This document shows positions 1,527-59,169 of a stretch of DNA of 64,000 nucleotides, piece after piece. This stretch comes from Planctomycetia bacterium. Lineage in GTDB: Bacteria; Planctomycetota; Planctomycetia; Pirellulales; PNKZ01. Location of the stretch: the NCBI GenBank assembly GCA_021413845.1, contig JAIOPP010000142.1:1-64000 (forward strand), read 5' to 3'. The position numbers were made by a program, and so were the translations under genes. The notes below the pieces were generated by a model. That model had not been told where the DNA came from and did not search any database. It worked only from the letters and a program-made list of their open reading frames with translations. The first letter of the stretch is position 1. Each line of letters begins with the position of its first letter.

Positions 1527-4500
1527 ATGAGCGTCGGCGAAAGCTCTTACGATCGGATTAACGACTACGCCTCGGTGAAGATCAGCCTCGCGCGTCCGCA
1601 CGATATTCGTAGCTGGTCGTTCGGCGAAGTGAAGAAGCCCGAGACGATCAACTACCGCACCTATCGCCCGGAAAAAGACGGCCTCTTCTGCGAGCGCATT
1701 TTCGGCCCTGAAAAGGATTGGGAATGCTCCTGCGGCAAGTACCGCGGCATGAAGTACAAGGGGATGATCTGCGACCGCTGCGGCGTGAAGGTCACGCATA
1801 GCCGCGTGCGCCGCAAGCGCATGGGCCATATCGAATTGGCCGCGCCGGTCGTCCATATTTGGTTCTTCAAAGCGATGCCTAGCCGCTTGGGCAATCTGCT
1901 CGATATGAAGACCACGGCGATGGAAAAGATCATCTATTTCCAAGACTACGTCGTCATCGATCCGAAAGAGACGCCGCTCAAGAAAAACCAGATGCTGACG
2001 GAAGACGAATACCGTCAGGCCCGTGAGCAATACGGCGACGGCTCGTTCGACGCCGATATGGGCGCCGAAGCGGTGCGCAAGATGCTCGCCGGTTTGGAGC
2101 TCGTCTCGCTGTCGCAAGAATTGCGCAAGGCGCTCTCGGAAACCAGCTCGAAGCAAAAGCAGAAGGATCTGATCAATCGGCTGAAGATCGTCGAAAGCAT
2201 TCGCGATTCCGACAACAAGCCGGAGTGGATGGTGCTCGACGTGATCCCGGTGATCCCGCCGGATCTCCGCCCGCTCGTCCTGTTGGATTCGGGCAACTTC
2301 GCCACGAGCGATTTGAACGATCTCTACCGCCGCATCATCAACCGCAACAACCGGTTGAAGAAGCTCGTCGACTTGAACGCGCCGGAAGTCATCATTCGCA
2401 ACGAAAAGCGCATGCTGCAACAAGCGGTCGATGCGTTGTTCGACAACAACCGTTGCAAGCGCCCGGTCCTCGGCTCGAGCAATCGACCGCTCAAGTCCCT
2501 CACGGACATGATCAAGGGCAAGCAAGGCCGGTTCCGCGAAAACTTGCTCGGTAAGCGGGTCGATTACTCGGCTCGTTCCGTCATCGTCGTCGGTCCGCAC
2601 TTGCGGCTGCATCAATGCGGCCTGCCGAAGAAGATCGCGCTGGAGCTTTATCAACCGTTCATCATTCGCCGCTTGAAAGAGCTCGGCCATGCCGACACGA
2701 TCAAGAGCGCGAAGAAGATGCTCGAGCGTAAAGATACCGAAGTGTGGGATATTCTCGAAGAAGTAATTCGCAACCATCCCGTGTTGCTCAATCGCGCTCC
2801 GACGCTGCATCGCATGGGTATTCAAGCCTTCGAGCCGACGCTCGTCGAAGGGAACGCCATCAAGCTGCATCCGCTCGTCTGCAAAGGCTTCAACGCCGAC
2901 TTCGACGGCGATCAAATGGCGGTCCACTTGCCGCTCTCGATCGAAGCCCAGGTCGAAGCCCATACGCTGATGATGTCGATTCACAACATCTTCAGCCCTG
3001 CCAACGGTGCGCCGATTATTTCGCCGTCGCAAGACGTCGTGATGGGTTGCTACTACGAAACGATGAACGTGCCGAATCGCAAAGGCGACGACATGATCTT
3101 CGGTTCCGTGTCGGAATGCATGCTCGCGCATGCGGTCGGCAAGGTCGATACGCATGCGCGGATCAAGTTCCGCCTGCCGAAAGATCGCCGCTTGAAGGGA
3201 GAAGGGGAACAAAAGCCCGGTATTCTCATCGAGACGACGATCGGCCGCGTCTTCTTCAACGACATGCTGCCCAAGGGGATGCCGTTCTACAACATCGCGA
3301 TGCGTTCGAGCGAGTTGCAGAAGGTCATCAGCGACAGCTACCAGATGCTCGGCCGTCGCGCGACGATCGACCTATTAGACAACATGAATCGCTTCGGTTT
3401 CCGCATGGCGACGGCCTCGGGCCTGTCGTTCGCGACCGACGATCTCATCACTCCACCTACCAAGACGAAGATCATCGGTGAAGCGGAGAAGACGGTTCTC
3501 AAGTATCAAAAACTGTATCAACGCGGCGTGATCACCGAGCAAGAGCGTTACAACTCCGTCCTCGATGCTTGGACGCATGCTCGCGAACGCATCACCGCGG
3601 AAATGATGAAAGAACACGAGAACGATTATCGGTCGGAAGGCTACGTGAACCCGATTTACCTCATGGCCCACTCCGGCGCGCGAGGCGGTGTCGAGCAGAT
3701 TCGTCAGCTGGCCGGTATGCGTGGTTTGATGGCGAAGCCGTCCGGTAAGATTATCGAAACGCCGATCAAGGCCAACTTCCGCGAAGGCCTAACGGTGCTC
3801 GAATACTTCAGCTCGACGCACGGTGCTCGTAAGGGCTTGGCCGATACGGCTCTCAAGACGGCCGACTCCGGTTATCTGACGCGTAAGCTCGCCGACGTCG
3901 CGCAGAACGTCGTCGTTACGATCCAAGATTGCAAGACGACGCAAGGCATCACGAAGGGAACGATCTATCGCGGCGAGAAGGTCGAAGTTCGGCTTTCCGA
4001 CTCGATCCGCGGCCGTTGCAGCCGCACGAACATCGTCAACCCGATCACCGACGAAGTCATCGTTCGTGAAAACGATTTGATCACGCCGACCATCGCCCGC
4101 CGCATCGAAGACATGGGCTTGGAGAAGATCCAAGTTCGTAGCCCGATGACGTGCGAAGCGTCGCTCGGTGTTTGCCGCTTGTGCTACGGCATGGATCTCT
4201 CGACCGGTTCGATGGTCGAAGAAGGCATGGCCGTCGGCATCATCGCCGCTCAGAGCATCGGCGAGCCGGGCACGCAGCTCACGATGCGTACGTTCCATAT
4301 CGGTGGAGCGGGCCAACGTCAGTTGGAAGAAAAAGAAATCAAGGCGAAGAAGACCGGTATCGTGAAGTTCACGCGCATGAAGGTTGTGCGCAACATTGAA
4401 GGTCAGCTCGTCGTGCTCACCCGCAACGGTGAAATCTCCTTGCTCGATCCGAAGGGTCGCGAGTTGGAGAAGTACGAGATCCCTGCCGGTGCCGTGTTGC

Positions 4501-5846
4501 ACGTCGAAGAGAATGCGGAAGTCCAAGCAGGAGGCGTCCTCTGCGAGTGGGATCCGCATAGCATCCCGATTCTCGCGGAAAAAGCAGGCAAGGTTCGCTA
4601 CGAAGAAATCATCGACGGCGAAACGGTCCGCAGCGAGAAAGACACGACCGGTAACATTCGTAAGATCATCACCGAGCATAAGGGTGAGTTGCACCCGCAG
4701 ATCATCATCGAAGATGAGCACGGGAAGATTCTCGACTTCTATTACCTGCCCGAGAAGGCGCATCTTGAAGTCAACGAAGGTGAAATCATTACCGGCGGTA
4801 AGTTACTCGCGAAGACTCCGCGTGAAGCGGCAGGCACGCAAGACATCACCGGCGGTCTCCCTCGCGTGACGGAAATCTTCGAAGCTCGCAAGCCGAAAGA
4901 TCCGGCGGTCATCGCCGAAATCGACGGCACGGTCGAGATCCTCGGCGAGAAGCGCCGCGGCAAGCGAACGATCATCGTCAAGAGCGAGAGCGGCATCGAA
5001 CGCGAACATCTCGTGTCGCACGGTAAGCATCTTCGGGTGCATAGCGGCGACTACGTTCGCGCCGGCGAAGCGCTCGTCGACGGTCCTTTGGTGCCGCACG
5101 ATATTCTCCGGATCTCCGGCGAAGAAGCGGTGCAGCATTATCTGACCCGCGAGATTCAAAACGTCTATCGCAGCCAGCGCGTGGAAATCGACGACAAGCA
5201 CATCGAGATCATCGTCTCGTCGATGCTCCGCAAGGTGCGCATCGAAACCGTCGGCGACACCGGCTTGCTGCCGGGCAGCCTGATGGATCGCATCGAATTC
5301 CGCACGGCCAACCAAGGGCTGCACGGTTGCGTTCGCATCACGCAAAAGGGCGACAGCGAATTCGCCGAAGGCTCGATCGTTCCGAAGGAAACCTTGGAAC
5401 AGGTCAACGCTCAGATCGAAACTCTCGGCGGCACTCCGACCAAGGGAGCTCGTCCGAAGCCGGCTACTGCGAGCACGCAGTTGTTGGGAATCACGAAGGC
5501 GTCGGTGCAAAGCTCCAGCTTCATCTCCGCCGCGAGCTTCCAAGAGACGACGAAAGTGCTCACCGAAGCGGCGCTGGCCGGCAAGGTCGACAAGCTCGTC
5601 GGCCTCAAGGAAAACGTTATTCTCGGCCACTTGATTCCTGCCGGAACCGGTTTCAAGACCTACCAAGAATCGGAAGTCCGGATCAATCCGCAAGCGTTGG
5701 AAGACATCGCCGCGGAGAAAGACAAAGTCTTGTCGCGCAGCTTCCCGCTGCTCGATGGTGCCGGCGACGGCGAACGGAAGCCGGCCGCCGAAACCAAAAC
5801 CGCCAGCTCGCTCGACGCTTTGTTGGGTGGTGCCGGCGGAGAATAG
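1527..5846 (+). CDS. rpoC: RNA polymerase beta' subunit
   Basis: DNA-directed RNA polymerase beta' subunit, 1439 residues, close to the usual proteobacterial length. The N-terminal zinc site is at C67, C69, C82 and C85. The catalytic metal-binding motif NADFDGDQM is near residue 456. A second zinc cluster includes [11 protein letters not shown] near residue 874. The trigger-loop region reads [16 protein letters not shown] near residue 912. The start is supported by AGGAG at 1514-1518, eight bases before ATG. The long antisense frames seen inside this gene are codon-bias shadows. A perfect 12-bp hairpin sits directly after the stop. Confidence 0.99.
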
Positions 5847-30160: not shown

Positions 30161-31192
30161 ATGAGCATGGACGCCGCTCGCCAACACGAATTCAGCTCCG
30201 TCGATTTAAGCCCTTTCGAGCAATTAAGCTACGCTCGGCAGATCCTGCGCATGGGCTCCCAAGCGCTGGAAAAAGTCAGCGAACGACTCGACCTCGAGTT
30301 CTGTCGCGCGGTCGAGCGGTTGCACACCTGCCGGGGGAGCGTCGTCGTCAGCGGGATCGGCAAGGCAGGCCTCGTCGGCCAAAAGCTTTCCGCCACGCTC
30401 GCCTCGACCGGCACGCGCAGCTTTTTTCTCCACCCGGCCGAAGCCGTGCATGGCGACCTCGGGCGTCTCCGCAGCGACGATGTCGCGCTCGTCCTTTCGC
30501 AGAGCGGCGAGACGGAAGAAGTCGTGCGACTGTTGCCGTCGCTGGCCGCGGCCGAGGTGCCGATCGTCGCGATGACGGCGCGGAGCAGTAGCCGCTTAGG
30601 GCGGGCCGCGGAGATCGTACTCGAACTCGGCCCGTTGCAAGAGGCCTGTCCGCTCGGTCTCGCGCCGAGTACCAGTACGACGGCGATGCTCGGCCTCGGC
30701 GATGCGTTGGCGCTCGTCACGAGCCGGATGCACCGTTTCGGTCGCGAAGATTTCGCGAGGGTTCACCCGGCCGGCGCGCTCGGTCGCCGCTTGAGCAAGG
30801 TTGAAGAGCGAATGCGTCCGGTCGATGAATGCCGTGTCGCTTCGGATGCGCAACCGTTGCGCGAAGTCTTCGCACAGGTTCGCCGTGCCGGTCGACGCAG
30901 CGGAGCCGTGATGTTGGTCGATGCCGAAGGAGCGCTCAGCGGCCTCTTCACCGATAGCGATCTCGCGCGACTGTTCGAGTCGCGCCGCTACGAAGGGTTC
31001 GACCTACCGATGTCGGCACTCATGACGAAGAACCCGACGATGGTCGTCGAAGGGACGATGCTGGCCGACGCCGTGGCGATCATGGCCGATCGTAAGTTCA
31101 GCGAACTACCGGTCGTCGATCGCTTCAGCAGGCCGATCGGTTTGCTCGACGTCACCGACTTGGTCGAGATGATTCCGGACGAGCCCCGTTGA
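30161..31192 (+). CDS. kdsD: Arabinose-5-phosphate isomerase (KdsD/KpsF family)
   Basis: Sugar isomerase of 343 residues, converting ribulose-5-phosphate to arabinose-5-phosphate, the first step of KDO synthesis for lipopolysaccharide. The SIS domain has VVSGIGKAGLVGQKLSATLA near residue 60, LSQSGETEEV near residue 111 and HPAGALGRRL. Two CBS domains follow from about residue 213, with GLFTDSDLARL and ALMTKNPTMV. GAGG at 30148-30151 supports ATG 30161; in-frame ATGs at 30155 and 30167 are possible. The next genes are kdsC and an OstA-like gene, as in the E. coli kds-lpt cluster. Confidence 0.93.
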   Translation: MSMDAARQHEFSSVDLSPFEQLSYARQILRMGSQALEKVSERLDLEFCRAVERLHTCRGSVVVSGIGKAGLVGQKLSATLASTGTRSFFLHPAEAVHGDLGRLRSDDVALVLSQSGETEEVVRLLPSLAAAEVPIVAMTARSSSRLGRAAEIVLELGPLQEACPLGLAPSTSTTAMLGLGDALALVTSRMHRFGREDFARVHPAGALGRRLSKVEERMRPVDECRVASDAQPLREVFAQVRRAGRRSGAVMLVDAEGALSGLFTDSDLARLFESRRYEGFDLPMSALMTKNPTMVVEGTMLADAVAIMADRKFSELPVVDRFSRPIGLLDVTDLVEMIPDEPR

Positions 31193-31255
31193 TTTCGTTT
31201 CGTATAAGCGACCCTCTAAAAACTTATCGCCGATTTTCCGAACGGACCGACCTCT

Positions 31256-31774
31256 ATGACGAATTCCAATCTCCAACCGATCGAACTCATCTTGGCCGAC
31301 GTCGACGGGGTGCTCACCGATGGCAGCATCATCTTCACGAACGAAGGGATCGAGATTAAGCGATTCAACATTCGCGACGGCCTGGGTATCAAACTCTGGC
31401 AACGAGCCGGCGGCAAATTCGGTCTGATTACCGGGCGCAATTCGCACATCGTCAACGTGCGCGCCGGTGAATTAGGCATCGAGATCGTGCGCCAAGGGAC
31501 GGAGAAGAAGCTCACGGCGGTGAAGGAGATTCTCGCGCAGCTGCGCTTGGAACCTCAGCAGGTTTGCTTCATCGGCGACGATCTTCCCGACCTCGCGGCG
31601 ATGCGCTACGTCGGACTCGGGGTCGCCGTCGCCGACGCTTGCATCGATGTTCGCCAAGCGGCCGATTACGTTACGCATCTCAACGGCGGAACCGGCGCCG
31701 TGCGCGAAGTGATCGAGATGATCTTGCGCGCACAGCAGCGCTGGGACGACGTTCTGCACCCTTATAACGCGTAA
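31256..31774 (+). CDS. kdsC: KDO 8-phosphate phosphatase
   Basis: 3-deoxy-D-manno-octulosonate 8-phosphate phosphatase, 172 residues, a small cap-less HAD-family enzyme that releases KDO. The nucleophile motif DVDGVLTDG starts near residue 15 and the metal-binding motif IGDDLPDLAAM near residue 105. GLITGRNSHIV is the second HAD motif. Length is normal. It lies 63 bases after kdsD. Confidence 0.95.
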   Translation: MTNSNLQPIELILADVDGVLTDGSIIFTNEGIEIKRFNIRDGLGIKLWQRAGGKFGLITGRNSHIVNVRAGELGIEIVRQGTEKKLTAVKEILAQLRLEPQQVCFIGDDLPDLAAMRYVGLGVAVADACIDVRQAADYVTHLNGGTGAVREVIEMILRAQQRWDDVLHPYNA

Positions 31775-31840
31775 GACTCGCGCGTCGAGCATCGCAGCCA
31801 TATTTGAAACCGTAGCCGATCCGAATCACCACTCCAACCC

Positions 31841-34800
31841 TTGCAGCGATCCGTGATCGAAAGCCTGACGCGCATCATCGCCAGCTTCGTGCTCACCGCC
31901 GCCTGTTATACGGCGTATGCGGTGGCGGTGGTGCCGTTCGTCGAGCCGGCGCCGCCGGAAGCAAACGGCGATCTTCCTGCTCTGACCGAAACGGATTTCC
32001 AAATCGCTCAAGAAGGAGCGGTGCGTCAACGGGCCGACTTAGCGTATTGGTTTCGCGACGGCGATTGGGAGCTGGACACTCCGTACATGCTCGAGACGTC
32101 GCAAGGCAAGCTGTTGTTTCGCGACCATCGACCTCGCGACGACGGCCTGTGGGAAATCAATCCTTGCTCGATGGTCTTACTTTCCAACGAACCGGGCGTC
32201 GATCCGGAGCTTCGTAAACGTCGGGCAACGGTGCTCCGCGCGCCGGAGGGAGCCCTACTGCGTTTCGAGACCCCGATCGACTTGAAGCAAGGAACCATCA
32301 GCAAGCTTATCGGAGGCGAATTGCTCGGCGAGGTCGAGATCACGAGCGGTCAAAAGTTGCCCGGCCCTGAAGACGATCTCAAGATCACGACGCGCGACGT
32401 GATGCTGAGCGAAACGCATATCTCGACGCCGCACATGTTGGAATACCGTCTCGGCACCCATCGCGGTCGGGGGCGCGGCGTGCTGATCGAAATGAATAGC
32501 GAAAAGACGCCCGGCGTGGGCGAGAGCCAAAATCGGGGCATTAAAACTCTGACGCTCCAAGAGCAAGTCTACGTGCATCTCGAGCCCGATGCGAACAGCG
32601 ATCTTTTCCCAGGCCGTTCGTCCGAAGCGGCGGTTGCGAAAGCGCCTGCGGAGCGTGGGGCGAAGCCTTCGCCGCCGGTCGATATTCGCTGTAGCGGCGC
32701 CTTCACGTTCGACATGGTGAAGAACATCGCAGTGTTTCGTAAGCAGGTCGACGTTACGCGGCTGAATCCTGGCGCGGAAAGTGATCAAATCAACGGCGAT
32801 TTGCTGACGATCTACTTCACGTCGGAGGCGCCGCCGACTGCCGCCGGTGTGCCCGACCCGAACGGAGCAGCGCAGGTCGCGTCGAAGAAGCTTGAGCCTT
32901 CGCGCATCGAAGTGATCGGCGAACCGGTCGTGATTCGCGCGCCGAGCAACCGCTTGCAAGCGCGCGCGCAATACGTCGAACACATTCTCGCCACGCGGAG
33001 CGTGAAGCTGCGCGATTCGGTCGAGGCGATCGTGCGGCAAGATGCCCGCGAGATTCGAAGCCCCGAGTTGACGTTCGTACCCGATGCCGCCGGCGGCTAT
33101 GGGACGATGCTCGCCCAGGGAAAAGGAAGACTCATCGGCTCCGCTCCCGACGATCCGGCACAAACCTTCGAGGCCGAGTGGACTTCGCGCTTCTACTTCC
33201 GTCCGCACGAAGGGCAACCGGTCCTCTCGATCGAAGGCAATGCGCGCGTCGAAGTGCCGGGCAAGGGAACGATGGCGGCCAGTCAGATCCATCTGTGGTT
33301 CAAAGAGGTTCCGAAGTCTTCGACCACGCCGCTAGGTACGCAACCGCTCGTCGATTTGCCGGCCGTGGATACGGGCAAGAAGCCGCGCACTGAGCTCCAG
33401 GCCGATCGCTTGCTCGCGCTCGAAGCCGTGCATATCGACTCGCCGCAAATGGTCGGCGACATCGAACGTCTTGAAGGTTGGTTCGAGCATACGAATCGCG
33501 TCGGCATGCGCCAGGCGATGTACCGTCCTGCCGGCGACATAGTGCTGGTCACCGCGCTGCTCGGTGCCGGACCTCTGCAATTTCCCGACGAACGGCCGAC
33601 GATCGTTGAACCGAAGCCGGTTCCGATGTTGGCGGAGCAACCTCGCGCAGCGGGCCTCTCCGGAGCAGTACCGCTGTCGACGATGTCCGGCGGCGGAATT
33701 CCCGCGGCGTCTCCGATCGTGCCCCGGCCGGGCATGGCGCCGATCGTGAATCCCGCGATGCAGCCGCAGCCGAATAACTTCGGGCAAGCAGCGGCTCCGG
33801 CCGCTCCGCCGGAGCCACAGCCGCAATACCATATTCGCGGTGAGTTGGCGCGGATGTTGATCAATGTTGAAGATCGCGTGATGCGAGTCCGCGAAGTCGT
33901 GGTCGAAAAGAACGTGAAACTAACGGAGACGCGCACGAAGCTCCCGACGGAGCAGCCGCTCTTGATTCAAGGCGACACGTTGCAGCTCTCACAAGCTTCG
34001 CCGACGGCTTCGTATGTCGTCGTTACCGGAACGCCGGCTTATGTCGAAGCACGCGGCATGACGATGTCGGGCGGCAAGCTGACGCTCGATCGCCCGAATC
34101 CGCAAACGAACCTGCTCGGCGTCCCCTGCCAAGGAGTGATGACGTTGCCGGTCGACCGCGACTTGCAAGGCAAGCCGACCGGTGCGCGCGAGCTTCTCAA
34201 TCTCACTTGGCAAGGAGGGCTTACGTTCGACGGCCTGACGGCGAAGTTCGAGCGGGGGGTCGAAGCGCGACTCGCCACTCAATATCTCCGCACCGATCGG
34301 ATGGACGTGATCTTCAATCGGCCGGTGGCGATGGGGGAATCGGACGGCAACCAACCGCCTCCCGATATCGAACGAGTGAATTGCTACGACGGCGCATTCG
34401 TCGAGAGCCGTACGTTCGAAGGGCCGGAGTTGAAATCCGTCGATCGTTTGACCGCTCGAACCTTAGCGCTGCATCGCCCTTCCGGCGACTTCGCCGCCGA
34501 CGGCCCAGGCGAAGTCGTCTCGGTACGTCTGGGCAAACCGAAAGATCCTGCCGCACCACCGGCGTCGAATCAACCGGTTGGCAATGCCGGGATTCCGGCG
34601 ATTCCGATCGGTTTCGGCGATGACGACCAAGCCGCGAACGCGAAGCCGACGATCAACTATTTGAATACCCGTTTCCAGCGCAGCCTCAAAGGAAACGAAA
34701 TCCGCCGCGAGATGACCTTCTCGAATCAAGTGCGCGTCCTTTACGGACCCGTGCCACAATGGAACGCCGTGATCGATCCCGACCGGCCCGAGCAATGGGC

Positions 34801-35128
34801 CCAGCAAACGGTGCTGATCGATGCCGATCAATTGCAGGTCAACGCCGTGCGCGACAGCGCGACCAACACCGATTCCTACAATCTCGTGGCCGAAGGGAAC
34901 ACGCTCGTCGAAGGGAATACGTTCACGGCCCGAGCCCCGCGACTCACGTATGCGCAAGCGAAGGATCTGTTGGTGATCGAAGGAGATGCTCGCACCGATG
35001 CCGAGCTTCATCACCAGAAGAAAATCGGCGGTCAAAATTCCGACACGAAGGCGCAGCGTTTCATGATCTGGCCTTCGACGAATCGCGTGCAAGTCGATGG
35101 CGCGACGTTTCTCGACCTGACCCCGTAG
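31841..35128 (+). CDS. Giant OstA/LptA-like envelope protein
   Basis: A 1095-residue protein. One hydrophobic segment near residues 10-35 anchors it. Long beta-strand-rich stretches of OstA/LptA-like character follow (for example ELQADRLLALEAVHIDSP, IRGELARMLINVEDRVMRVR, VLIDADQLQVNAVRDSA), with repeated units on either side of a proline/alanine-rich linker (about 600-660). Its place after kdsD-kdsC is that of lptC and lptA in E. coli, so a role in lipopolysaccharide transport across the periplasm is likely, perhaps as a fused LptC/LptA. It is about five times the size of either. The start TTG 31841 is uncertain; GTG 31853 is an alternative, and neither has a clear ribosome-binding site. No lptB follows here. 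Confidence 0.6.
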   Translation: MQRSVIESLTRIIASFVLTAACYTAYAVAVVPFVEPAPPEANGDLPALTETDFQIAQEGAVRQRADLAYWFRDGDWELDTPYMLETSQGKLLFRDHRPRDDGLWEINPCSMVLLSNEPGVDPELRKRRATVLRAPEGALLRFETPIDLKQGTISKLIGGELLGEVEITSGQKLPGPEDDLKITTRDVMLSETHISTPHMLEYRLGTHRGRGRGVLIEMNSEKTPGVGESQNRGIKTLTLQEQVYVHLEPDANSDLFPGRSSEAAVAKAPAERGAKPSPPVDIRCSGAFTFDMVKNIAVFRKQVDVTRLNPGAESDQINGDLLTIYFTSEAPPTAAGVPDPNGAAQVASKKLEPSRIEVIGEPVVIRAPSNRLQARAQYVEHILATRSVKLRDSVEAIVRQDAREIRSPELTFVPDAAGGYGTMLAQGKGRLIGSAPDDPAQTFEAEWTSRFYFRPHEGQPVLSIEGNARVEVPGKGTMAASQIHLWFKEVPKSSTTPLGTQPLVDLPAVDTGKKPRTELQADRLLALEAVHIDSPQMVGDIERLEGWFEHTNRVGMRQAMYRPAGDIVLVTALLGAGPLQFPDERPTIVEPKPVPMLAEQPRAAGLSGAVPLSTMSGGGIPAASPIVPRPGMAPIVNPAMQPQPNNFGQAAAPAAPPEPQPQYHIRGELARMLINVEDRVMRVREVVVEKNVKLTETRTKLPTEQPLLIQGDTLQLSQASPTASYVVVTGTPAYVEARGMTMSGGKLTLDRPNPQTNLLGVPCQGVMTLPVDRDLQGKPTGARELLNLTWQGGLTFDGLTAKFERGVEARLATQYLRTDRMDVIFNRPVAMGESDGNQPPPDIERVNCYDGAFVESRTFEGPELKSVDRLTARTLALHRPSGDFAADGPGEVVSVRLGKPKDPAAPPASNQPVGNAGIPAIPIGFGDDDQAANAKPTINYLNTRFQRSLKGNEIRREMTFSNQVRVLYGPVPQWNAVIDPDRPEQWAQQTVLIDADQLQVNAVRDSATNTDSYNLVAEGNTLVEGNTFTARAPRLTYAQAKDLLVIEGDARTDAELHHQKKIGGQNSDTKAQRFMIWPSTNRVQVDGATFLDLTP

Positions 35129-54996: not shown

Positions 54997-57900
54997 GTGA
55001 GTGCGACGACGCGCATGGCAAGTGGTGCCGCAAAGCCTCGATCCGGTTCATCCGATGGTTCGCGCGGGGAAGCTTCTCGCGGGGGTGGCCCGCGCTCGGC
55101 CGGTCGGGTCATCGAATACCAAGCCTACATCGACGGCCAACTTCGCAAGACGCGGAGCCGTGTGAAATGGGTCGATCTGGGATCGAGCCTCACTCTGCTC
55201 GCCATCGGCGTGCTGGCCTATCTGCTCGTCGCTGCCGTGATCGATCATTGGGTCGTGCCGGGGGGCTTAGGATTCTCCGGACGCTTGCTGCTGTGCATCG
55301 GCTTGGTCGGCGGCGCGGCTTATCACTTGGTTGGTCGCTTTGCTCCTTTGCTGCTGCGCAAAGTAAATCCGGTCTACGCGGCCGAGGCGATCGAGCGCGG
55401 TCAGCCGATGAAGAACTCGCTGATTAACTTTCTGTTGCTACGGAAGCAGCCGAACCTCTCGTCGGAGTCGATGCTGGAGGCGATGAAGGAGCAAGCGGCC
55501 GTGCGACTCTCGGCCGTGCCGGCCGATGCTCCGGTCGACCGGACGGCGCTCATCCGCCTCGGCTACGTGTTGTGCGCGGTTCTAATCGCCGCCGTGGTTT
55601 ACGCTTTGGCCGGTCCGAAGGATGCGATTCGATCCGTGAATCGGGTCATCGCCCCTTGGGCCGATCTTGCGCCGTCGACACGCGTGAAGATCGTCGAACT
55701 GACGCCGGCCGACGTCGAACGGCGGCGCGATGAGGTCGTCGAAGTGAAAGTACGCACGAAGAACATGCGCGCCACGGATGAAGCCGTGGTCTTTTACTCG
55801 AACTCCGGGAAGCCGGAAGACGACATCGCCGTGCCGCTCCGATCGGATGACGTGCTGCATTGGTCGGCGACCATTCCCGGCGGCAGCGAAGGGCTTAAGC
55901 AAGACTTGTACTACTACGTTCGGCTCGGTGATACCGAATCGCCCCGCTATCGCATTCGCGTCGCCGCCACGCCGGTTATTACGGTCGGTCGCGTGCAGTA
56001 CGAGTATCCCGCTTACACGGGCTTGCCGCCGCGCATCGTCGAGCGCCAAGGAGATTTGAAAGGTTTGGAAGGGACGCGCGTCGTCCTTACGGCCGAGACG
56101 AACCAACAGATCCGTTCGGCGTTCGTGGCCTTCGATGCGGCGCGCAATCGCGATGTGGAATTGACGCCCGATGAAAACAAATTGAAAGCGACTGGAAGCT
56201 TCGAGCTGGCGCTGACGAAGGATCGGAAGCGGCCTGCACATACGTCGTATATGCTGCGGTTTGCGAATATCGACGGGCAAGAAAATCCGAAGCCGATCGA
56301 GCACAAGATCGACGTCACGGCCGATCAAGCTCCGGAAGTAAAAGTGATCGAGCCGACGAGCCCGGCCTCGCAAGAGTTGCAGGTGCCGCTCGGTGCGCCG
56401 TTGCGCATTACGCTGGCGGCGCGCGATCCCGACTTCAAGCTTGCCGACCTGGCCGTGGTCTTTGAGCGCGGGGGCGTACCGCTACGCGAAGAGCGCATGC
56501 TCGCGGAACCGCGCGACGGCGACTTCTCGAATACGGTCGTGTTCGATGCGGCGCGCTATGGTTTGAAGGTCGGCGATCGGGTGACCTTCCGCGGTCGCGC
56601 GAAGGATAACAAAGCGCCGCAGCCGAATATCGCGGAGACGGCGCGCTACACGATCGTCGTCGTTCAAGGCAACGGCGCGGCCGGCCAACCGCCGAAAGCC
56701 GGCGAGCAAGGGCAACCGAACCAGCAGCAGAACAATCAACCGCCTGGGAACCAACCTCAAGACCGGAAACCCCAACAAGGCAACGACCCGCAACAAGGGA
56801 AGCCTTCGGGTGACCAACCGCAGCCGCCGGCCGGCGACAACCGTGAAGGAAACCAGCAACCGAACGGAAAAGGCACGTCTCCGAACGGCCAGGGAAATCA
56901 AAAGGGCCGGCCGCAAAACGAAAATCGCCCTCCGGATCAACAGCCCGGCACCCAGCAGCCCAACGATCCGAAGTCCAATAGCCCGCAACCGAATCAGCAA
57001 CAGACCCGTGGCGGGCAAAAGGAAGATTCTCGCAACGGACAGCCGCAAGATGCGCCCCGGCCCGGCGAAGGGAAGCAAGACGCCGGCTCGAAGCCGGGAG
57101 AGAACGGCGGTGCTAAGAACGGGCAAGACGAGAAGCCGATCGATCCCGAAGTCGATCCCGGGAAGGCAATTCAAGAGCTTAAGGATTTCTTCGACAAGCA
57201 GGACGCCAAGGACGAAGCGCAGAACAAGAACGAGCCGGGAAAGCAGCCGAAAGACGAAGGGAAGCAAAACGGTTCGCCGGGAAGCGGCGATAAGAATGAG
57301 TCGGGAAATAAGCAACCTTCCGGCAAACAACCCGCTGCCGAATCTGCGAACAAAAAGCCCGACGACCGACAAGGGGCCGGCAAAGAACCCGGCATGAAGG
57401 AGGGCTCCGAAAAGGGAACCGAGAAAGGTTCGCAAAAGACGGACGACCCCAACGGCAAAGGTGGCAAGCCGGACCAAGAGAACGGCAAAGAAGGAAAGAA
57501 AAACGACGGCCCATCGCAACCCGGCGGACCCTCGGGCGCAGGAAAACAGTCGGGCGGCGACGAGGGGAAGCCCGGCGGCGATCAACAATCGGGCGGCAGC
57601 CCGAGCGGCAAGCAATCGGAACGGCCCGGCAGTCAGGCGGGCAGCCCCGGCGGCTCCGAGGGGATGCGCGCCGACGATAAGGCTCAAGGAGCCGCCGAAC
57701 GTCGTGAAGGGAAAAACGACGGCGGTCGCGAGGTGGAGCGCAAGCCGACCGATGGCAACGGCGGAGAGAAACCGGTAGCGAACGAGAGCCGCAAGCCCGG
57801 CGACACGACGGGTGCTAAGCCCGCGGATCGGAACGAGAGTCAACCCGCCGGCGAAAAGAACGGCTCGGAAGCTCCGATGCCGGGCACAGGTTCGAAACCG

Positions 57901-59169
57901 AACGGGGAAGGTAAGGAAGCACCGCCGAAAACAGGCACGGCGAACGAAGGTAATCCCACGCCGGATCGTGAAGGCAAGCAATCGGGCGGCGGCGATGGTG
58001 GTCAATCGGGAAGCGCATCGTCGAAGCCGGGCGAAAAGTCCGGCGCGAAAAAGAATGCGGAGAAGCCCGGCGAGAAGCCGGTCGGCGAACGTGAAGGGGA
58101 GAAGCCTTCGGCCAACAATGGTCAGCCGTCGGGCAATCAAAAAAATCCCGGCGATGTCGGCGGAAGCAATACGAAGAACGAAGGGACTCCTGAAGCGCAA
58201 GAAACGAACAAGCCTCGCGACAAGACCGGCGGCGCTGATGCCGGCAGTAAGGAAGAATCTCGCGGCGATCCCGGCAAGTCGCCGAGCGGTAGTAAACAAG
58301 AATCGGACGCGCAGGGCCAATCGAGCGGCGATCGTTCGGGCAACGGAGAAGAAGGGGGCGGAATGAAGTCGCCCAAGAAGGGGACCGGCTCGGCTGGCTC
58401 GAACACTCCCGGCGATCAAGGCTCCGGCGCAGCCGCTGAAGAGGGAGACTCCGTCACGGGGAACAAGCCGGGCGACAAGGCGCGCGGGCCGGCGCCTTCG
58501 GAAGGGAAGCAACCGGGAGGCAAACCTTCGGGCGAAAAGGGAGACGGAAATCAATCGCGAGCCGGCGGAGACCGATCGGGCGGTACGGGCCAACCCCCCG
58601 CAGATGCATCGAGAGGAGATCCTTCCGACGATCAAGCGAACCAGGGGGGCCGAGATGCGAAGCCCGGCGAACGCCCTCAGGACGGCGCCGCGCAAGGTGA
58701 CGGCGGGGGCGGAATTCCCAAAGGACCGAGCGGGGGCCGTTTCGGTCGGACGACCGAGCCTGGGGGCGATGCCGCGAATCTCGACTACACGAAGAAGGTG
58801 ACCGACCTGACGCTCGATCGCTTGAAGAATCAACTCGACAAGGGGCAAGTCGATCCGGAGTTGTTGAAGAAGTTCGGTTCGCGCGAGGCGCTCGATCAGT
58901 TCGCGCGGAAGTGGGACGAAATGCGCCGTGCGGCGCAACAGCCGGGCGCTCAAGGAGATGCGGCCCGTAAGCAATTCCAAGAGACGCTCAAAGGCCTCGG
59001 CTTGCAATCGCGGACGACGTCGCAGCAGGGGCGCCGCACGGGGGACGATGATTCGCGCGAACTACGTGGTTCGCGCCGAAGCGAGCCTCCGGCCAAGTTC
59101 GCCGATCAGTACCGCGCCTACACGACCGGCATCGGCCAAGCTCCTGCGGAACCGGCCAAAAAGCCGTAA
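54997..59169 (+). CDS. Giant membrane protein with long disordered region
   Basis: A 1390-residue protein. Two membrane helices lie at about 58-84 and 88-112 and a third at about 185-205. A beta-rich, probably extracytoplasmic domain follows (to about 555) with VQYEYPAYTGLPPRIV and IRVAATPVITVGR. Then come about 700 residues (557-1260) of G, P, Q, N, K, E, S and D, with no hydrophobic segment. The C-terminal end (1262-1390) is ordered and conserved-looking: LDYTKKVTDLTLDRLKNQL and FGSREALDQFARKWDEM. Similar planctomycete proteins exist with a DUF4175-like N-terminal part; their function is unknown to me. The start is GTG 54997; ATG 55015 is an alternative. Confidence 0.6.
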   Translation: MSATTRMASGAAKPRSGSSDGSRGEASRGGGPRSAGRVIEYQAYIDGQLRKTRSRVKWVDLGSSLTLLAIGVLAYLLVAAVIDHWVVPGGLGFSGRLLLCIGLVGGAAYHLVGRFAPLLLRKVNPVYAAEAIERGQPMKNSLINFLLLRKQPNLSSESMLEAMKEQAAVRLSAVPADAPVDRTALIRLGYVLCAVLIAAVVYALAGPKDAIRSVNRVIAPWADLAPSTRVKIVELTPADVERRRDEVVEVKVRTKNMRATDEAVVFYSNSGKPEDDIAVPLRSDDVLHWSATIPGGSEGLKQDLYYYVRLGDTESPRYRIRVAATPVITVGRVQYEYPAYTGLPPRIVERQGDLKGLEGTRVVLTAETNQQIRSAFVAFDAARNRDVELTPDENKLKATGSFELALTKDRKRPAHTSYMLRFANIDGQENPKPIEHKIDVTADQAPEVKVIEPTSPASQELQVPLGAPLRITLAARDPDFKLADLAVVFERGGVPLREERMLAEPRDGDFSNTVVFDAARYGLKVGDRVTFRGRAKDNKAPQPNIAETARYTIVVVQGNGAAGQPPKAGEQGQPNQQQNNQPPGNQPQDRKPQQGNDPQQGKPSGDQPQPPAGDNREGNQQPNGKGTSPNGQGNQKGRPQNENRPPDQQPGTQQPNDPKSNSPQPNQQQTRGGQKEDSRNGQPQDAPRPGEGKQDAGSKPGENGGAKNGQDEKPIDPEVDPGKAIQELKDFFDKQDAKDEAQNKNEPGKQPKDEGKQNGSPGSGDKNESGNKQPSGKQPAAESANKKPDDRQGAGKEPGMKEGSEKGTEKGSQKTDDPNGKGGKPDQENGKEGKKNDGPSQPGGPSGAGKQSGGDEGKPGGDQQSGGSPSGKQSERPGSQAGSPGGSEGMRADDKAQGAAERREGKNDGGREVERKPTDGNGGEKPVANESRKPGDTTGAKPADRNESQPAGEKNGSEAPMPGTGSKPNGEGKEAPPKTGTANEGNPTPDREGKQSGGGDGGQSGSASSKPGEKSGAKKNAEKPGEKPVGEREGEKPSANNGQPSGNQKNPGDVGGSNTKNEGTPEAQETNKPRDKTGGADAGSKEESRGDPGKSPSGSKQESDAQGQSSGDRSGNGEEGGGMKSPKKGTGSAGSNTPGDQGSGAAAEEGDSVTGNKPGDKARGPAPSEGKQPGGKPSGEKGDGNQSRAGGDRSGGTGQPPADASRGDPSDDQANQGGRDAKPGERPQDGAAQGDGGGGIPKGPSGGRFGRTTEPGGDAANLDYTKKVTDLTLDRLKNQLDKGQVDPELLKKFGSREALDQFARKWDEMRRAAQQPGAQGDAARKQFQETLKGLGLQSRTTSQQGRRTGDDDSRELRGSRRSEPPAKFADQYRAYTTGIGQAPAEPAKKP

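Follow-up and report, generated by a model that had tools for sequence, protein, structure and literature searches.

A predicted covalent fusion of LptC and several LptA-like modules encoded beside kdsD-kdsC in planctomycetes

The large open reading frame (ORF) that follows kdsD and kdsC directly in tandem, on the same strand, in the window (the whole 64,000-nucleotide stretch of Planctomycetia bacterium DNA that was analysed) very probably encodes an LptC covalently joined to about five LptA-type modules in a single chain, which would carry lipopolysaccharide (LPS) from LptB2FG to LptD. The ORF (31841-35128) has 1095 codons from TTG 31841, and the starts of its orthologues align with GTG 31853, so the protein probably has 1091 rather than 1095 residues. 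An earlier note on this DNA, made from the letters alone, had described kdsD-kdsC followed by a 1095-residue LptA-like protein, and profile searches bear this description out. KdsD falls in the KpsF/GutQ family (TIGR00393, 245.7 bits vs a cut-off of 203.7), KdsC exceeds the cut-off of TIGR01670, and PF03968 (LptA / LptD N-terminal domain, LptD_N), the only Pfam match in the large protein, scores 27.8 bits vs a curated cut-off of 20.4 at residues 988-1057 (DNA 34802-35011), which places the protein in the OstA/LptA superfamily. Homologues in 40 of 40 related genomes indicate that it is not a chance reading frame. Two further very long ORFs are present in the window, at 1527-5846 (1,439 residues) and 54997-59169 (1,390 residues). 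The features of the locus are listed in Table 1.

Table 1. Position of the genes and of the predicted domains of the large protein in the window.
Feature	Position	Strand	Basis
kdsD	30161..31192	+	Arabinose-5-phosphate isomerase; SIS and two CBS domains (Pfam); ORF open from 30080
kdsC	31256..31774	+	Kdo-8-phosphate phosphatase; TIGR01670 179.4 bits vs cut-off 106.95
Predicted fused LptC-(LptA)n protein	31853..35128	+	PF03968 over cut-off, orthologue starts, AF2 and fold matches
N-terminal transmembrane anchor (predicted)	31874..31930	+	Residues 12-30 of the 1095-residue frame, mean hydropathy 1.93; also in orthologues; AF2 helix 2-25
LptC-like beta-taco domain	32084..32587	+	Fold matches within model residues 75-278
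LptA-like module 1	32663..33142	+	Residues 271-430 (model 2 residues 4-163), LptA 2r19_A fold match
LptA-like module 2, boundary approximate	33143..33490	+	Profile similarity to module 1 (E 7e-5) and module 4 (E 4e-6); strands continuous in both models
Pro/Ala-rich disordered linker	33497..33814	+	pLDDT < 50 at residues 549-654; 42% P+A over 590-662
LptA-like module 3, weakest supported	33827..34123	+	Five beta strands in both models; profile similarity E ~7e-4 to 2e-3, near reversed control
LptA-like module 4	34133..34531	+	Profile similarity to module 1 E 4e-8; LptH 4uu4 match
Second disordered Pro/Ala-rich linker	34541..34639	+	pLDDT < 50 at residues 897-929; 39% P+A
LptA-like module 5, C-terminal, the one recognised by Pfam	34652..35098	+	PF03968 27.8 bits; LptD-N and LptA fold matches

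An ordinary LptA was rejected as the identity of the large protein, which scores far below the cut-off of the NCBI LptA equivalog TIGR03002 (26.4 vs 71.7 bits) and, at 1,091-1,095 residues, is no small single-domain protein. PF03968 was matched in 33 of 38 orthologues (E <= 0.1), and the PDB profile search with the window family retrieved mostly LptA, all matches being weak (best E 0.002). The LptC profile PF06835 gave no match in the window protein in the Pfam search; it is weak and sub-threshold in 5 of the 38 orthologues, and clear (60-68 bits) in shorter relatives from the phylum. The single sequence of E. coli LptC gave no usable hhalign match, and the LptC-like module showed no significant similarity to the other modules in the internal profile comparison. 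Therefore, the LptC assignment of the window protein rests on the fold model and on the relatives in the phylum. Pattern scanning was done on an 11-sequence subset, the 38-sequence alignment being too diverse, and a single-protein scan of the genome contigs gave no matches.

The N-terminal anchor proposed in the earlier note was recovered as a hydrophobic helix, and the Pro/Ala linker as a stretch that is disordered in the model and reaches 42% P+A at residues 590-662, vs 18% in the whole protein. In profile comparison, modules 1, 2, 4 and 5 match each other as repeats (E 4e-8 to ~7e-4); the reversed-profile controls score no better than 0.003, and module 3 is marginal. The best count is one LptC-like and about five LptA-like units.

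The AF2 model of the large protein (13 sequences, mean pLDDT 73, pTM 0.53) contains an N-terminal helix and then ~55 strands in four blocks (78-243, 276-546, 659-893 and 934-1082), split by disordered stretches of which the two longest separating ones are 549-654 and 897-929; with 13 sequences and this pTM, the relative placement of the modules is not fixed by the model. The best Foldseek matches to the model are LptD and LptA. According to VIA-align, LptC 4b54_A superimposes on the LptC-like domain with a Z of 11.1 and an rmsd of 2.3 over 122 residues (residues 83-243), and two further structures, 3my2 (Z 10.9, residues 84-245) and 6mit_C (Z 11.3, residues 75-278), match the same domain. The predicted N-terminal part is a single helix (residues 2-25) followed by an LptC fold (residues 83-245, Z about 11). 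In the second model, of the middle part, residues 271-430 match LptA 2r19_A (Z 13.0, rmsd 3.1 over 125 residues, 22% identity). Behind them, residues 769-1070 match LptA, LptH and the LptD N-terminus at Z 10.7-14.3 (VIA-align): LptH 4uu4 at residues 769-966 (Z 10.7, rmsd 2.2), LptA 2r19_B at 861-1060 (Z 10.9) and the LptD N-terminal domain 4q35_A at 774-1070 (Z 14.3), to which the C-terminal part is closest in fold. The several OstA-like beta parts noticed from the letters appear in the predicted models as about six units of the beta-taco (jellyroll) fold of the OstA/LptA superfamily, and the specifically LptC-like character of the first is a sharper statement than that of the earlier note.

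Across the genome of the window (7.08 Mb, 99.6% complete), the fused protein is the only one to score above the PF03968 cut-off, and profile searches found neither a separate LptC (PF06835) nor an OstA_2 protein (PF13100). A PF03968 match on contig C85 was rejected as LptA, its frame containing a stop. The absence of a normal lptA-lptC pair among these results, together with the predicted fold, agrees with the proposal that a single protein takes the place of lptC and lptA. LptB is present over its equivalog cut-off (320.7 bits) on another contig than the fused gene, and none of the loci checked by motif showed lptB next to the fused gene. In the lptB neighbourhood (L084:6039-9547), two same-strand ORFs resemble signal peptidase I by sequence inspection. 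Furthermore, the genome encodes two LptF/G-family permeases, WaaA and LpxC. The LptD candidate is a 1,124-residue protein (L037:1742-5110, minus strand), matched in 29 of the 30 genomes that were searched. Compared by itself with Pfam, NCBIfam and PDB profiles, it gave only a low-complexity repeat and no LptD match; 8 of its 15 aligned orthologues match PF04453 LptD (E <= 0.1), and it is probably LptD, recognised only through these orthologues. The repeat, Pro/Gln/Ala-rich and pericardin-like, precedes the presumed barrel and occupies residues 266-298. With lptB, lptF, lptG and, via orthologues, lptD found in the genome, the Lpt system looks complete at the level of gene content except for separate LptA and LptC, roles which the fused protein can fill.

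The fused protein was found in all 40 related genomes searched, which represent about 20 families of one order, Pirellulales. Identity to the window protein is 57-60% in three copies from the same genus and falls to about 25% in others. In 33 of the 38 fetched loci, kdsC is followed immediately by the gene on the same strand, most of the five remaining loci being contig ends or cases where the neighbour was not found. Profile search recovered long relatives in 16 of 16 same-class genomes sampled, eight of which have no PF03968 match at all; PF03968 misses many true relatives, so a genome without a match may still encode the protein.

Elsewhere in the phylum the arrangement extends further than the earlier note had proposed. 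A kdsC match was obtained in 123 of 148 planctomycete genomes, and among 60 kdsC loci that were fetched, 59 have a downstream ORF. In 39 of these 59, a lower bound because picking the longest same-strand ORF mis-picks some loci, the next ORF encodes at least 518 residues (median about 990, maximum 1,705) with an N-terminal membrane helix. Twenty-five of the 39 proteins match PF03968 and 16 match PF06835 (E <= 0.01). A profile built from the 39 has 28 PDB matches, 27 of them Lpt proteins, with LptC at positions 8-217 and LptA and LptD-N behind; most of the profile can be aligned to the window family (E 3e-32). The fusion is most strongly evidenced by one family of 640-670 residues encoded right after kdsD-kdsC, in which Pfam reads one LptC (60-68 bits) and then 3-4 LptA domains. 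Another family shows kdsC-adjacent anchored proteins of 1,604-1,705 residues (L165:793-5604, plus strand; L199:850-5964, minus strand), whose length suggests that they carry still more modules. A few planctomycete genomes have short LptA-like ORFs instead or in addition, such as those of 190-371 residues at L129:4722-5342 (minus strand), L130:4895-5464 (plus strand) and L137:3173-4285 (plus strand); at least one genome with a short LptA-family ORF also has a kdsC-adjacent OstA protein of 350 residues (L138).

A sister family of the same class, f21 (for instance L126, L133 and L134), gave a kdsC match in 0 of 12 genomes sampled. Its genomes keep the long protein, which lies beside kdsD in the three loci read; another phosphatase may act there, or the Kdo pathway may differ. 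This family and the Lpt system of Borrelia, which has no LPS and for which such a cargo has been proposed (PMC10353723), are what speaks for a bridge of the same fold that transports another (glyco)lipid and not classical LPS, and a beta-taco groove could carry such a lipid. Nevertheless, we consider this unlikely for the window protein: its genome encodes lipid A-Kdo synthesis, with kdsD and kdsC alongside the gene and LpxC and WaaA elsewhere, and lipid A is reported in planctomycetes, as cited in PMC5394234. It is very unlikely that the long protein has only the role of LptC or of a scaffold while a small, very divergent LptA encoded elsewhere forms the bridge. Such an LptA could escape PF03968, as the eight same-class genomes that have the long protein and no match illustrate, but nothing else in the window genome is over threshold, the LptA-like modules sit inside the long protein, and the fusion is conserved in every one of the 40 relatives. 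Finally, an unrelated beta-rich periplasmic protein (an AsmA/TamB-like bridge or an adhesin) that merely resembles LptA is hardly conceivable, since, even if other families do have long beta-groove bridges and unrelated beta-rich chains occur among the fold matches at lower Z, no TamB/AsmA-type chain is among the fold matches listed, the top ones are all Lpt proteins, and LptA, LptC and LptD were retrieved by sequence profiles as well as by folds.

In the Lpt route, LptB2FG extracts LPS, which passes to LptC, LptA and LptD through continuous beta-taco grooves. With LptC and LptA fused in one chain, the route of LPS would be the same and the handovers intramolecular. We infer the membrane topology, the binding of LPS, the docking to LptFG and LptD and the direction of transport as follows. 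The N-terminal helix would anchor the fused protein in the inner membrane, and the LptC-like domain would receive from the LptB2FG transporter LPS made with Kdo from the neighbouring KdsD and KdsC. This LPS would then be pushed through the tandem modules along their hydrophobic groove, with the linkers acting as hinges, and the C-terminal module would dock onto outer-membrane LptD at its periplasmic domain.

The E. coli locus kdsD-kdsC-lptC-lptA-lptB has the same order of kdsD-kdsC and then bridge genes. The likeness drawn in the earlier note holds for this part and fails for lptB, which follows lptC-lptA in E. coli and is elsewhere in the planctomycete genome. LptC and LptA of E. coli, taken together, share with the fused protein the sequence of membrane helix, LptC domain and LptA domains, with the C-terminal end expected to face LptD. 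They differ in that E. coli uses two proteins of 191 and 185 residues and free oligomerisation of LptA, whereas the planctomycete protein is one chain of about 1,090 residues, has a gene-encoded set of about five LptA-type modules and, unlike E. coli LptC and LptA, contains Pro/Ala linkers. The C-terminal part also resembles the LptD N-terminal domain (Z 14.3); however, LptD has an outer-membrane barrel, which the fused protein lacks, and a separate LptD-like protein is encoded. In the same PVC superphylum, LptA and LptC of the verrucomicrobial Methylacidiphilum have the same proposed role, although they are reported as separate proteins under neighbouring locus tags, Mfum_1152 and Mfum_1153 (PMC10542722).

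A review from 2014 mentions, without giving detail, that fusions carrying as many as four OstA domains are predicted in many Gram-negative organisms (PMC3944529). They have several OstA/LptA domains per polypeptide, as does the planctomycete protein, so the fusion as such is already known from that text; the planctomycete protein differs in its about six beta-taco units, including the LptC-type one, and in its place beside kdsC across the phylum. No description of LptC-LptA fusions in planctomycetes was found in the open-access full-text literature (subscription papers being outside this scope). The biology suggested to be undescribed is not wholly so, and the interpretation given in the earlier note is partly supported overall. 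What appears to be new is the number of modules, the explicit order of LptC and LptA, the conserved place beside kdsC and the spread throughout the phylum.

According to a review, the periplasm is believed to be bridged by about four OstA domains (PMC3944529). With about six beta-taco units, and LptF/G and LptD in addition, the bridge would be longer or slacker, which might be tied to the planctomycete periplasm, variable and sometimes greatly enlarged (PMC5394234). Across Planctomycetota, where the proteins of different lineages range from about 520 to 1,700 residues, the gene-encoded number of modules could act as a ruler for the distance between inner and outer membrane at export sites, as opposed to free oligomerisation of LptA; we put this forward tentatively, at somewhat less than an even chance.

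The planctomycete Lpt set is called largely reduced in one survey (PMC8871954), and another reports only LptD and BamA as clearly detectable (PMC3422733). An LptC-LptA fusion would explain why planctomycetes seem to be without LptA and LptC and, if it is true throughout the phylum, would fill this gap in the published surveys. It would also mean that one polypeptide with a set length can form the bridge, a point relevant to the copy number of LptA per bridge, and structural studies would gain a naturally pre-assembled bridge. The LptC-LptA interface is a target of thanatin-type antibiotics; in these bacteria, if the fusion is true, this interface would become an intramolecular junction.
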